Shown here piece by piece: positions 1-6,095 of a DNA stretch of 6,185 bases (the first letter of the stretch is position 1; the number at the start of each line of letters is the position of its first letter). A model generated the notes under the pieces. It searched no databases and was not told where the DNA came from. It saw nothing but the letters and a program-made list of their open reading frames with translations. Made by a program: the position numbers and the translations under genes. The stretch covers positions 1 to 6,185 of the forward strand of contig CAIXQV010001094.1 of NCBI GenBank assembly GCA_903921605.1, given 5' to 3'. This stretch comes from an uncultured Planctomycetaceae bacterium. GTDB taxonomy: Bacteria; Planctomycetota; Planctomycetia; Planctomycetales; Planctomycetaceae.

Positions 1-1715
1 CCAAAGTGAAACTGCCACAAACGATTAACCATGACTCGCGATGTCAGCGGATTCTGTGGACTCGTCATCCATTTCGCTAAAGCAGTACGGCGACCTGTAC
101 TGGCAGCATCCTCAGCCGGAGCAATGATTTCCGGAACTGGCGGAGAAAGCACAGTTGGGAAACCTGGCTGAACTTCATCTCCAGGACTCGCAGGATTTCC
201 TCGCAGCAGAACATGCGTCGGCCGCAGTCCTTTCACGTCTTCTTTGACACACAACGCCTTGGCCAGACCCGTCGGCGGATTCTCACGCAGTCGATTGCGA
301 CGATCCGTCAAATGGCGATAATGATTGACCTGATTCTCCTTCAGCAGCCCGCCTTTTCGCTTCTCGATCAAACGAACGCGGTTGACTTCAAACTGGTATT
401 CGTCGTTTTCGACACCCGTGAAGTCGGCTTTGACCTTCTCTTCGATCTCGGCGATTTCCCGTTCGATATGCTTCAATTCGTCCTTATGCTGGCGAACGGC
501 CGCCTCATGCAACTCACTTCGTTCCGGCTCGCTGATTTCCGTTACGGAATTCTCCATGACCGATTCACCCGAGCGGACTCCATAACGCCGCACACCTCGG
601 AAGAAGGCCAGCAGACTGTAATAGTCTGATTGTGGCACTGGGTCGATCTTGTGATCATGACAGCGAGCACAATTGATCGACAATCCCAACAGCGATTGAC
701 CAGTCGTGGCGACGATATCATCAAGGTCATCATAGTACGCGAGTTCCGGATCAGCGGGCTCATCGTCCCATCGTCCCAAGCGATAAAAGCCGGTTGCCAC
801 GATTGAATCCGGTGACTTATCCGGAAGCTCATCACCAGCAAGCTGCTCCATCAGGAAGCGATCGTACGGCTTGTCGGCATTGAACGACTGAATCACATAG
901 TCTCGATAGCGCCAGACAAACGGTTTGGCTCCATCGCGTTCGTAGCTGTTGGTTTCTGCGTATCGCACCAGATCAAGCCAGTGCCGTCCCCAGTGCTCAC
1001 CGTAATGCGGTGAATTGAGCAGATCGTCGATGAGTTTCGACCAGGCTTCTGGAGATGGATCTTTCGCAAACGCCTCCACAACTTCCGGCGCCGGAGGCAA
1101 CCCGGTCAGGTCGTAATAGGCTCGACGCACCAGCTCACGAGGCTCCGCCGGAGCATTCGGCTCCAGCCCATTCTTCTGCAACTGGCTCAGAATGAAGGCA
1201 TCAATCTCAGACTTCGCCCTGTCTCCTTTGACTTTGGGAACAGACGGCTTTTTCACAGGCTGAAAGGACCAATGCTTTTTTGTCTCTTCATTAACCGTTG
1301 GAGCTTCGCGAGGAACTTCAAAGTGCAGTGGCTTGCCGTCTTTCGACCACGCAAGTCCATCGGTGACCCACTTCGTCAAAGCTTCAATCTGCTTTGGCGA
1401 AAGCTGTCCCGTCGGAGGCATCTCGTAGCCATCGTAATTGACAGCTTTCAGAAGCACGCTTTCCGCAGGCTTTTCAAGATCGACAGCCGCTCCGGATTCG
1501 CCCCCTTTGAGGATCGCCTCTCGAGCCGTCAAATCCAACCCGCCTTTGGGCTTAGCTCCGGCATGACACTTGAGGCAATTCGCCTCAAGGATCGCCACGA
1601 TCTCATTTTCAAAGTGCTCGATCTGTGCTGCCGTGGCTGTCGCTTCATCTCCTCGGACATTCACCGAGCAAAGAGCGATTAAAGGGATCAAACAAAGCCA
1701 AAATCGAGTCAACAT
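1..1715 (-). CDS. PSCyt1/DUF1549/DUF1553 planctomycete cytochrome-like secreted protein (3' part beyond left edge)
   Basis: The frame is open without interruption from an ATG at 1713-1715 to the left edge (571 full codons). Residues 1-22 form a Sec-type signal peptide: Arg-4, a hydrophobic run of Trp, Leu, Cys and Ile, then a likely cut just before Asp-23. Residues 35-120 resemble the planctomycete cytochrome C domain, with haem motif C47-L-K-C50-H51 and a Met-Pro-Pro at 99-101 whose Met could be the distal ligand. Residues 172-385 match DUF1549, including a second CxxCH (C349-A-R-C352-H353). Charged, coiled-coil-like sequence fills about 398-480. DUF1553 begins near 541 and is cut at its conserved Asn-Arg-Leu-Trp-Gln segment. 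Family members are usually 800-1100 residues, so roughly half is missing. Such genes are often followed by a DUF1501 gene, which would lie off the left edge. The biochemical role is unestablished; haem binding and extracytoplasmic location are inferred. The ribosome binding site is weak (GAG, 7 nt before ATG). Confidence 0.93.
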   Translation of the reverse strand, partial: MLTRFWLCLIPLIALCSVNVRGDEATATAAQIEHFENEIVAILEANCLKCHAGAKPKGGLDLTAREAILKGGESGAAVDLEKPAESVLLKAVNYDGYEMPPTGQLSPKQIEALTKWVTDGLAWSKDGKPLHFEVPREAPTVNEETKKHWSFQPVKKPSVPKVKGDRAKSEIDAFILSQLQKNGLEPNAPAEPRELVRRAYYDLTGLPPAPEVVEAFAKDPSPEAWSKLIDDLLNSPHYGEHWGRHWLDLVRYAETNSYERDGAKPFVWRYRDYVIQSFNADKPYDRFLMEQLAGDELPDKSPDSIVATGFYRLGRWDDEPADPELAYYDDLDDIVATTGQSLLGLSINCARCHDHKIDPVPQSDYYSLLAFFRGVRRYGVRSGESVMENSVTEISEPERSELHEAAVRQHKDELKHIEREIAEIEEKVKADFTGVENDEYQFEVNRVRLIEKRKGGLLKENQVNHYRHLTDRRNRLRENPPTGLAKALCVKEDVKGLRPTHVLLRGNPASPGDEVQPGFPTVLSPPVPEIIAPAEDAASTGRRTALAKWMTSPQNPLTSRVMVNRLWQFHF

Positions 1716-2046: not shown

Positions 2047-2922
2047 TCAGGCCTTTTTGCGAATCTCGAGAGCGCGGGCATCTCCTTTTTTGGCAGGTAA
2101 TCGAACGGCATGACGTATCATCCACTTACGCGTCTTTGCCGTCTCTGGTGGCGCTGATTTCTTTGTGATCTCGTTCAGCCACTGCTCGCAGATTTCATAA
2201 ATCACATCTGGATGATCCTTCAAAATGTCGGCCAGATGATTGGCCACCGACCGCCGCACATACAATTCCGGATCATCTTTAAGCAATTCCAACAGAGGCA
2301 GCATCCTCTGAGGATTCTGCTGAAATTCTCGCAACCGTCCGGCCCATGGAAGTCGTGGACGAGTTCCCTCGCTCACAAGTCGACGCACATGAGCATTCGG
2401 ATCCTCGGTCCAGCTTTTCAGGAGCTTTAAAGACTCATCCGGGTACTTCGTCAGAAATGGCCTGATACTGAACTCTGCGGAGAATCGCTTGGTCAACTCA
2501 TAGTTGGCCCGCATGCCATTTTCAAAATCCGCCAACCCACGTTCCATAATGACATGGGAGTGAGGCATATAAAAGAATGGTGCAAGTCCGTTGCCTTCGG
2601 TGCGAGTCAGCTCCGGGCCAAACGAAGCCAGCAACAGAGGACAGGCTTCCGAAAAACTTTGCGGCAATTGTTCGGCCAGCGCTAAGCCAATCTGGCGCGC
2701 TCGCTGGCTGAGCTCCAGAGCTTCCAGACCATCCATGGCGGTCTGCTCAAAAGATTGCCGATTAAACTTCGGCGCTATGTCCGCAAACGACTCAGCGATG
2801 AGCTGAATCAGATCGCGGCCCATCAAATCCTTCAGCGGGACGCCCTGCAGGATTGCATCAGGCGCCTGAAATTGCTGCGAAGGATGCTCCTTTGTCGAGA
2901 TTTGTTTCTTCTTTCCGGTCAA
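2047..2922 (-). CDS. AlkC-family HEAT-like-repeat DNA alkylation repair protein (probable 3-methyladenine-type DNA glycosylase)
   Basis: The 291-residue product is soluble and alpha-helical, with no signal peptide. It carries the signatures of the AlkC-like DNA alkylation repair family (COG4335). These are Pro-Asp-Ala-Ile...Gly-Val-Pro-Leu-Lys-Asp-Leu at 21-33, Asn-Gly-Leu-Ala-Pro-Phe-Phe-Tyr at 111-118, RPFLTKYPDESL at 154-165, HVRRLVSEGTRPRLPWA at 178-194, YVRRSVANHLADILKDHP at 221-238, and a basic C-terminus around 267-285. The two HVRR/YVRR segments are successive HEAT-like repeats of the kind that grip damaged DNA. Known AlkC enzymes excise N3-alkylated purines as part of base excision repair; activity here is inferred. 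The C-terminal Ig-like domain present in some AlkC proteins is absent. The chosen start is TTG (2920-2922), with GGAG 7 nt upstream and family homology beginning about 20 residues in. The frame extends to a GTG at 3054, but that form adds 44 unconserved residues and overlaps the divergent gene. An ATG at 2983-2985 sits directly against AGGAGG, too close for initiation. Confidence 0.88.
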   Translation of the reverse strand: MTGKKKQISTKEHPSQQFQAPDAILQGVPLKDLMGRDLIQLIAESFADIAPKFNRQSFEQTAMDGLEALELSQRARQIGLALAEQLPQSFSEACPLLLASFGPELTRTEGNGLAPFFYMPHSHVIMERGLADFENGMRANYELTKRFSAEFSIRPFLTKYPDESLKLLKSWTEDPNAHVRRLVSEGTRPRLPWAGRLREFQQNPQRMLPLLELLKDDPELYVRRSVANHLADILKDHPDVIYEICEQWLNEITKKSAPPETAKTRKWMIRHAVRLPAKKGDARALEIRKKA

Positions 2923-3066
2923 CGCATCGCTCCACAGAAACTGTCGCAACTCTCCTCTCAGCTGACGGATTGTACTTTGACACATCCCTCCTGAAACTGC
3001 GACGATCCGAATTTCTGGAAACACTCCCGGATGCCCCGACCCCTCCGCGCTCACGAGAAAATCATC
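2923..3066. promoter_or_regulatory. divergent intergenic region with weak promoter elements in both directions
   Basis: These 144 bp separate the starts of the AlkC-like gene (minus) and the beta-helix gene (plus), so both promoters should lie here or just inside the genes. On the minus strand TACAAT (2969-2974, five of six matches to TATAAT) would start RNA near 2962, about 40 nt before the TTG start. Its -35 is poor (GTTTCA). On the plus strand a perfect TTGACA (2977-2982) is followed at 18 bp by GACGAT (3001-3006), a weak -10. The two candidates nearly abut, which would couple their occupancy if both are real. No operator-like palindrome was seen. Confidence 0.35.
2930..2933 (-). promoter_or_regulatory. 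ribosome binding site deciding the TTG start of the AlkC-like gene
   Basis: On the minus strand GGAG lies 7 nt before the TTG at 2920-2922, a normal spacing. The upstream alternatives in the frame are worse: an ATG at 2985 has its AGGAGG only 1 nt away, and a GTG at 3054 has no clear site. This supports a 291-residue product. Confidence 0.55.
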
Positions 3067-4625: not shown

Positions 4626-5783
4626 TCAGACCTTTGCGGCCTTGATCAGCTTTTCTTTCTCCTGACGCGACAGATCTTTGATCGCCAACTCCCGCTTCAG
4701 CGCCTGACTGCGGCCGGGCTGCTCTTCCTGATAAACTAACACAACCGGCAGACGGCTGCGTGTATATCGAGAAGCCGTGCCTGCATTATGCTTTTTGATA
4801 CGACGAGGCACATCATTGCTGACGCCTGTGTACAAGGAACCATCCGCACAACGCAAAAGATAAACGAACCAGGGCGTGTCAACTTTGGCTGCCTTTTTGA
4901 GATCGGTCAGCAGTTTCCCAACAGCCAGTTCTTTGGCTTTCGCCTCGACTTCAACCGTTAGCGACTTGTTGCGCCAGATGTCGGGAAAATCTCGCACGTC
5001 GATGTAGTCATGATGTCGTTCCGGTTTTGGCCCATCCCAGCCTTCCAGTGGACTGGACAGATGAAACATAGGCTCACGATTCCAGGTCGCCAGAGCTTTC
5101 TCCGTCGCCTGTTCAATGCTCAATTCATCCGGGAGACAGCGATGATGATGCACGTCATAGACAAGAGGAATCCCGGTTGACTCACAGACTGGCAGCAGAT
5201 CGGCCGGCGAGAAAATCTTATCATCGTTCTCCACCGTCAGTCGACTTCTCGCGCGAACAGAGAGGCGATCGACATTTCGAGCAAACTCAGCCAGAGCTTT
5301 GGTTTTATCACCGTAAGCTCCGCCGCCGTGAATATTGACGACATCAGCTCCGATCCATTCCGCTACCTCGGCCTGGTACTCCAGCTCCAGCAATGATTTC
5401 TCCACGACATCCGCGCGTGGCGAATTCAGCACGACAAACTGATCGGGATGAAAGCTGGTTCGAAGCTGATGCTGCTCGGCGAATTTTCCGCACTCTTTGA
5501 ATCGCCGAATGATCTCCTGTCCGTCGGGTAATTCCTCGATGCCGTAGCCCGACGTTGAATGAGTTTTCACGGGCAGGATCTGGCTATTGACTCGAAAGCA
5601 GCCAATGTCATTCCCCGCACAGTATTGAAGCGAAGCCAGCAGAGCATCTGCGTTCTGAAGACACAGGCGACTCAGTTTCGCCAGAGCATCCTCACGATTC
5701 ATTCGACCGATGGCCGTCACGGTCGTATTTGCAAACTTGATTGGCTGCTCCTGAAACATGCAGCAGAGGCCCAGACGAATCAC
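4626..5783 (-). CDS. uvsE: UV-damage endonuclease (UvsE/UVDE) fused to a C-terminal YhbQ-like GIY-YIG nuclease domain
   Basis: The 385-residue product has two domains. Residues 1-295 form the UVDE TIM barrel, which in this family nicks DNA directly 5' of UV photoproducts and other lesions using a cluster of metal ions. By alignment from memory to the Thermus enzyme, the metal-ligand equivalents are His-75, His-112, Gln-115, His-152, Glu-185, Asp-210, His-213, His-241, His-258 and Glu-280, all present. The Thermus modified lysine corresponds to Met-239. Residues 304-381 are a complete GIY-YIG domain of the YhbQ/UPF0213 type: Val-Tyr at 307-308, Tyr-Thr-Gly at 318-320, catalytic Arg-327, the HNAG...RYTR segment (332-342) and catalytic Glu-365. 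The linker is only about 8-10 residues, rich in Lys and Ala, and no frameshift or stop separates the domains. The start is GTG (5781-5783), with AAGGG 6 nt upstream and the family N-terminus (Ile-Arg-Leu-Gly) immediately following. The frame continues upstream to a TTG at 5969 but that part matches nothing known. No signal peptide is seen, so it is cytoplasmic. A weak promoter-like pair, TTGGAT and TATCTT (18-bp spacing; -10 at 5820-5825), lies just upstream. Confidence 0.93.
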   Translation of the reverse strand: MIRLGLCCMFQEQPIKFANTTVTAIGRMNREDALAKLSRLCLQNADALLASLQYCAGNDIGCFRVNSQILPVKTHSTSGYGIEELPDGQEIIRRFKECGKFAEQHQLRTSFHPDQFVVLNSPRADVVEKSLLELEYQAEVAEWIGADVVNIHGGGAYGDKTKALAEFARNVDRLSVRARSRLTVENDDKIFSPADLLPVCESTGIPLVYDVHHHRCLPDELSIEQATEKALATWNREPMFHLSSPLEGWDGPKPERHHDYIDVRDFPDIWRNKSLTVEVEAKAKELAVGKLLTDLKKAAKVDTPWFVYLLRCADGSLYTGVSNDVPRRIKKHNAGTASRYTRSRLPVVLVYQEEQPGRSQALKRELAIKDLSRQEKEKLIKAAKV

Positions 5784-5789
5784 GGTTTG

Positions 5790-5794
5790 CCCTT
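5790..5794 (-). promoter_or_regulatory. ribosome binding site deciding the GTG start of the UvsE fusion gene
   Basis: AAGGG on the minus strand lies 6 nt before the GTG at 5781-5783. This is the best Shine-Dalgarno match near any in-frame start, and it places the conserved UVDE N-terminus at the first residues. In-frame ATGs at 5841-5843 and 5931-5933 lack a well-spaced site. Confidence 0.65.
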
Positions 5795-6095
5795 GTTCAA
5801 CATCGTGAGCCACAATGGAAAGATAGCCGCCTGTGACACCCATATCCAATAAGCGATGAGAGCCCGACTCGACAGAATCACGGGTCCGAAACTCTGCCAG
5901 ATCAGCCCATCCTCGCCCGGAACGAACGTCCATGAAAGTTCGGGGAGTCTGTTGCTCAGAATTCTCCAATCCATGAATCTTCCGGTTCCTGCCTGAAACG
6001 AATCGCTACGGCCCGATACCAACTCGCAAGTCATTCACTCTGTTATCGACCATTGCCGCCTCGCTCCTGATTGTAGGCAACGCGGCGTCGTTTAA

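Follow-up and report, generated by a model that had tools for sequence, protein, structure and literature searches.

A fusion of the UV damage endonuclease UvsE with a GIY-YIG nuclease domain, widespread in planctomycetes

Closest described systems

The UV damage endonuclease UVDE nicks DNA on the 5' side of photoproducts and leaves a 3'-OH and a lesion strand with a 5'-phosphate; in the UVDE pathway the nick is followed by strand-displacement synthesis, in which the flap nuclease Rad2 takes part in S. pombe (excerpted text of PMC7582305). The UVDE/UvsE proteins of Thermus thermophilus and Sulfolobus acidocaldarius (PDB 2j6v, 3tc3, and 4gle) are chains without a GIY-YIG domain, unlike the protein described here, which is encoded in a 6,185-nucleotide stretch of planctomycete DNA (the window). 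The UPF0213/YhbQ-like GIY-YIG proteins 1zg2 and 1ywl stand alone, whereas here a domain of this type is attached to UvsE. Eukaryotic Slx1 and At-HIGLE are also among the closest known systems. Slx1 cuts branched DNA near the branch, with values of 90% for the flap strand versus 50% for the continuous strand of a 5' flap (excerpted text of PMC6902002). The eukaryotic enzyme has a C-terminal RING domain and a partner, Slx4; neither is part of the window protein, in which Pfam found no RING domain. UvrC likewise places a GIY-YIG nuclease beside a second nuclease in one protein; however, its GIY-YIG domain is followed by UvrB-binding, RNase H-like, and HhH domains, none of which was found here with Pfam, and in the window protein GIY-YIG is the last domain. 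The EndoIII-GIY-YIG fusion of Methanococcales (MJ0613, COG1833) also combines a lesion-specific nuclease with a GIY-YIG domain, and a two-sided cut or a gap-making role has been proposed for it (PMC1564403). It is, however, an archaeal glycosylase/AP lyase joined to another GIY-YIG family, with two members in 2006, and an endonuclease III domain was not found in the window protein with Pfam.

UVDE, the UPF0213 GIY-YIG proteins, and fusions of repair enzymes with GIY-YIG domains are thus each already known. No description of a UvsE-GIY-YIG fusion was found in the open-licence papers searched, including those on planctomycetes with either domain, nor was a paper with both YhbQ and GIY-YIG. The open-licence papers that name UVDE/UvsE together with GIY-YIG describe two distinct proteins in the excerpts seen, and the databases label the fusion proteins simply as UV DNA damage endonuclease.

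Architecture and lineage of the fusion protein

The fusion gene is a single, uninterrupted frame on the minus strand (Table 1). An upstream extension of this frame stays open to a TTG at position 5969 (447 amino acids), although the GTG listed in Table 1 is probably the better start because the homologues align from it and tspO ends over it in many relatives. As claimed in the preliminary description, a UVDE barrel runs straight into an intact GIY-YIG domain within one open reading frame, and both domains score above the Pfam cut-offs: PF03851 (UvdE) with an E-value of 2e-61 (208.1 versus 24 bits) and PF01541 (GIY-YIG) with an E-value of 1.2e-16 (61.2 versus 22.6 bits). AP_endonuc_2 is the only other Pfam domain in the whole protein.

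Table 1. Coordinates in the window of the fusion gene, its parts, and the adjacent tspO remnant.
Feature	Position	Strand	Description
UvsE-GIY-YIG fusion gene	4626..5783	minus	385 aa; GTG start at 5783, stop codon 4626-4628
UvsE/UVDE TIM-barrel domain	4896..5783	minus	Residues 1-296 (Pfam stretch 5-268)
Glu185 codon	5229..5231	minus	Corresponds to T. thermophilus UVDE Glu175 (alignment mapped by hand); 121/121
Predicted helix 285-302	4878..4931	minus	Ends the UVDE part and leads to the first GIY-YIG strand, 305-312 (AlphaFold2 model)
GIY-YIG nuclease domain, Slx1/UPF0213 lineage	4629..4874	minus	Residues 304-385 (Pfam stretch 305-377)
Glu365 codon, metal-binding Glu of the GIY-YIG domain	4689..4691	minus	121/121; 65/65 within the clade, fused or not
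tspO remnant	5780..6034	minus	84-aa frame, diverged and shortened, overlaps the uvsE start; phmmer 5e-8 to the tspO of L001

The N-terminal part has the UVDE barrel fold, and its closest sequence matches among solved proteins are UVDEs. It passes the equivalog model TIGR00629 (uvde; 176.4 versus 124.45 bits) and lies below the cut-off of the narrower equivalog NF002640 (159.3 versus 456 bits). Conservation was assessed in an alignment of 121 sequences, i.e., the window protein and the best 120 of 7879 relatives. His112, His152, Glu185, His213, and His241, which align with metal-site residues of UVDE, are identical in all 121; the T. thermophilus counterpart of Glu185 is the residue replaced in the PDB mutant entry titled "UVDE E175A". 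Gln115-Phe116 occupies the position of the Gln-Tyr pair of UVDE, which we take to be DNA-probing, and Phe116 is present in 121/121. At the position of Lys229 of T. thermophilus UVDE, presumably a modified lysine, the window protein has Met239 (mapped by hand), and the homologues together with the window protein have Met in 95/121 and Leu in 22/121, so that a modified lysine is not found there. Since SacUVDE also has Met at this position, Lys229 does not define the family.

Among solved proteins, those closest in sequence to the C-terminal domain are the UPF0213 proteins BH0048 and EF2693, with the UPF0213/YhbQ-like PDB entries 1zg2 and 1ywl as best sequence matches (E-values of 9e-17 and 4e-15 with the whole protein, and 1e-26 and 2e-24 with a profile). 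In both the profile comparison and the predicted fold of the GIY-YIG part alone, UPF0213 and Slx1 rank ahead and UvrC lower; the domain is more similar to these two than it is to UvrC or I-TevI. UvrC is absent among the 50 Foldseek matches listed for the GIY-YIG part, and a second comparison ranks it lower. The conserved Asn at the C-terminal end is missing from the Slx1/UPF0213 lineage (PMC1564403), and the lack of an Asn after Glu365 in the window protein agrees with this. No NCBIfam model names the GIY-YIG domain. By profile and predicted fold, the domain is assigned to the Slx1/UPF0213 lineage and not to that of UvrC. The earlier label "YhbQ-like" was right in pointing to YhbQ/UPF0213, while the wider placement is with Slx1 rather than UvrC.

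In the AlphaFold2 model (mean pLDDT of 89.6, pTM of 0.75), the helix of residues 285-302 is predicted to run straight into the first GIY-YIG strand at residue 305. Because fold searches with the whole model listed barrels only, a separate prediction was made for the GIY-YIG part. Counted from the end of the conserved Glu-x-Glu-Ala-Lys, the linker is 12 residues long in 15 of 30 loci and 14-18 residues long in the other 15. A rigid device that measures the distance between two sites would be expected to keep its length, and the observed range of 12 to 18 residues is weak evidence that the tether is flexible.

The catalytic residues named in the preliminary description (Tyr308, Tyr318, Arg327, and Glu365, with Glu185 in the barrel) are at the claimed positions; Glu185, Tyr308, and Glu365 are identical in 121/121, and Tyr318 and Arg327 in 120/121. 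The median dN/dS is 0.091 for the UvsE part and 0.114 for the GIY-YIG part, which indicates purifying selection on both; these values come from 28 of 496 gene pairs (468 were dropped because synonymous sites were saturated) and are descriptive, as the pairs share genes. Judged from these residues, both halves look active. Over 29 fused loci, the distances of the UvsE and GIY-YIG parts are correlated (r = 0.53; 0 of 2000 permutations gave a value as high), as expected if both parts were mostly inherited together. When fused and unfused GIY-YIG domains were compared, without 19 distant GIY-YIG rows, none of the top eight columns listed separated the two groups cleanly, and a specialization of the GIY-YIG domain for UvsE is for that reason not visible.

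Distribution, history, and genomic setting

The fusion is real and widespread in planctomycetes. A search of a protein collection, in which 7999 candidates were scored, gave the 7879 relatives mentioned above; a search for proteins with both domains had been suggested earlier, and the best 120 of these relatives all carry PF03851 and PF01541 (120/120, 71-98% identity), on contigs of up to 488 kb for fused homologues. A GTDB contig scan gave 43 loci, in which our own HMM placed both domains in one frame in 12 (L001-L010, L016, and L024) and UvsE alone in 21 close relatives (L011-L015, L017-L023, and L025-L033), the remainder being one fragment (L037), six distant UvsE genes, and three loci with GIY-YIG only. 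The close loci are nearly all from Planctomycetota; the unfused ones include a few Riflebacteria and one Armatimonadota (taxa per record). Among 170 genomes of the planctomycete order of G003, 27 have both parts in one frame (G474, G475, and G509 without the N-terminal part; G440, in which the contig-end loci L166 and L167 are two parts of one fused gene, counted extra) and 37 have an unfused UvsE (in pieces in G485 and G489). Five fused and 19 unfused UvsE genes at 50% identity or more were found in an even sample of the phylum (392 genomes, with up to four candidates scored per genome, so that genes may have been missed). Since G139, G355, and G013 carry the fusion and lie outside the 170 genomes, it is not limited to one order; the possibility raised earlier that it is confined to one assembly is contradicted by these three genomes and the 27 in the order. 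The fusion persists in homologues down to 61-64% identity (G506 and G169). The genome set, for which completeness is not given, contains many MAGs, some possibly mis-binned.

Most named fused loci are indeed MAG contigs, the one point in favor of an assembly or gene-calling artefact. This explanation has practically no probability left, being ruled out by the 120/120 fused relatives, the nearly invariant catalytic residues, and the purifying selection on both domains, and fused copies sit deep within contigs of Mb size (e.g., G169:C1, G355:C1, and G524:C1). A phage or plasmid origin of the whole fusion was also rejected, as 0 of 135 phage and 0 of 93 plasmid matching records reached at least 80% query coverage. 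The only locus from a viral collection (L044:3001-3885, contig of 67.7 kb) is an unfused close UvsE, which groups with fused planctomycete genes on the UvsE tree. G512 has, beside an intact fusion, a second copy that is broken into two frames and lies behind a lipase-like frame (G512:C20, L164).

The fused genes do not form one clade. The UvsE tree of 101 rows requires 15 state changes with L166 counted as unfused; the tree of 84 rows (33 fused), in which 17 distant rows were left out, L166 was scored as fused, and L077 as unfused because its GIY-YIG part is mostly deleted, requires 14, of which at least 3 are forced by well-supported branches. A single clean fused clade was rejected on the 84-row tree (p-AU = 1.75e-41). 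Rows with an aligned span of less than 200 positions were dropped from the UvsE tree, and the trees were quick ones without mixture models. In the GIY-YIG tree (80 columns, few forks resolved), one group (SH-aLRT of 91) holds all 34 fused domains, 4 relics, 11 DUF6933 fusions, and 16 of 35 domains classed as alone, one of which, L167, is really fused. The change counts do not tell gain from loss; the intermediates suggest decay in both directions. L145 has a uvsE-like opening (Asp-Glu-Leu-Gly-Asn before the start, as in L166) and the UvsE tail with an intact GIY-YIG domain, and the barrel is missing. L140, approximately 1.5 kb from a fused gene on the same contig, has a UvsE tail in front of its GIY-YIG domain, and L075 and L078 are relics of the same kind, with GIY-YIG kept and UvsE lost. 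In L077, UvsE is kept and most of the GIY-YIG domain is deleted.

The same GIY-YIG clade occurs behind DUF6933 (PF22016) in planctomycetes (L076, L082-L085, L150, and L153-L157; confirmed with Pfam in L082 and L154, the two tested, and assigned by likeness in the others). Several planctomycetes with this second fusion have an unfused UvsE. The case for a strict exchange, in which a genome has either the fusion or a separate GIY-YIG gene, is weak: some genomes with an unfused UvsE have a separate close GIY-YIG gene (G408, G513, G528, and G492) or a DUF6933-GIY-YIG gene (G254, G315, G366, G405, G427, G428, and G431), others showed no separate GIY-YIG above the limit (e.g., G066, G087, G198, and G401), and both forms are present in G009.

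Repair genes were checked in 26 of 30 fusion genomes (G474, G475, G506, and G509 were left out). UvrC (TIGR00194) is above the cut-off in 26/26 and UvrB (TIGR00631) in 24/26 (partial at a contig start in G007, none in G453), which rules out the fusion as a stand-in for missing UvrABC; the Pol I-type 5_3_exonuc_N domain in 25/26 (none in G536) likewise rules it out as a stand-in for a missing 5' nuclease. As these systems are nearly always present, nothing evident has been replaced, and the fusion works beside them.

Among distinct loci with 400 or more bases upstream, tspO immediately precedes uvsE in 16 of 28 that are fused and in 19 of 41 that are unfused, and its end frequently runs over the uvsE start. 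The gene was seen when a shared regulatory motif upstream of uvsE was sought by eye, and no such motif was seen. The tspO of L001 (L001:5600-6001) is TspO_MBR (PF03073), the remnant in the window has no Pfam match, and the similarity of the window to L001 stops at position 5846. Elsewhere in the window, positions 2047-3054 (minus strand) encode a HEAT-repeat protein that matches DNA alkylation repair enzymes below the threshold (20.3 versus 21 bits; 19.3 for the L001 counterpart), and positions 1-1713 (minus strand) a planctomycete-typical PSCyt1-PSCyt2-PSD1 (DUF1549/DUF1553) protein, the scanned counterpart of which is L001:9864-12566.

Possible roles of the tethered nuclease

We tentatively propose that the GIY-YIG domain is an optional, tethered nuclease of the Slx1 lineage, which trims the strand carrying the lesion once UVDE has made its nick. 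The UvsE half would nick 5' of the photoproduct and leave a 3'-OH and a lesion strand with a 5'-phosphate, and the tethered domain, acting like Slx1, would then cut the lesion strand, either close to the nick or at the base of the polymerase-displaced flap. This second cut would remove the lesion and leave an end suitable for filling and sealing. By keeping the GIY-YIG nuclease at the nick, the tether would make the repair intermediate shorter-lived. The domain is an optional add-on: UvrBC and the Pol I-type 5' nuclease are kept, and many close relatives have UvsE alone. In favor of the trimming role are the completeness of both domains, their conserved catalytic residues and low dN/dS, the correlated distances of the two parts, the Slx1/UPF0213 lineage of the GIY-YIG domain, the preference of Slx1 for the flap strand, and the strand displacement in the UVDE pathway. 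Against it stand the patchy occurrence of the fusion, the variable linker, the lack of visible specialization for UvsE, the presence of the GIY-YIG domain elsewhere, and the relic L145; the 5_3_exonuc_N domain in 25/26 fusion genomes also counts against it, since a flap nuclease is not missing.

A rival reading is a mobile GIY-YIG module that settles behind various proteins, has its own work on branched DNA, and gains from the tether only a shared expression after UV, with no coordinated reaction. Such a loose passenger is somewhat less likely. It would explain why the same clade is found behind UvsE, behind DUF6933, and alone, why there are many gains or losses on the UvsE tree, and why relics run both ways (GIY-YIG kept in L145, L140, L075, and L078, and UvsE in L077), and Dunin-Horkawicz et al. 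(2006) cautioned that many GIY-YIG fusions may reflect domain mobility (PMC1564403). It accounts less well for the constant C-terminal position of GIY-YIG relative to UvsE, the retention of both active sites, the low dN/dS, the correlated divergence over the 29 fused loci, and the persistence of the fusion down to 61-64% identity. A dual incision, as suggested in the preliminary description, in which UvsE would cut on the 5' side and GIY-YIG on the 3' side of one lesion in uninterrupted duplex and a lesion oligonucleotide would be released without UvrABC, is unlikely. Two intact active sites on one short-linked polypeptide would suit it, and the same idea is in print for the Methanococcales EndoIII-GIY-YIG fusion (PMC1564403), yet the lineage is that of Slx1 and not UvrC, the linker length varies, UvrC (26/26) and UvrB (24/26) are kept, and close relatives often lack the fusion. 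A self-contained excision enzyme that makes both cuts on the same strand in one binding event and so frees an oligonucleotide with the lesion, as one polypeptide beside UvrABC, is improbable; if true, dual incision would have been solved a second time by convergence, with the nuclease types swapped. A role mainly in DNA binding or in targeting branched DNA, with catalysis of little weight, would suit a small domain that by eye is rich in basic residues and has linkers of varying length, but it is very improbable in view of the near invariance of Tyr308, Tyr318, Arg327, and Glu365 (120-121 of 121). Overall, the interpretation in the preliminary description is partly supported.

To our knowledge, it is not settled which bacterial nuclease finishes repair after the UVDE nick. 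The natural joining of UvsE to a nuclease points to a candidate for this step and allows it to be tested in a single tube, and the fused, unfused, and relic forms in close relatives are matched natural pairs for experiment. The fusion also suggests a role in DNA repair for the GIY-YIG proteins of the UPF0213/YhbQ type.
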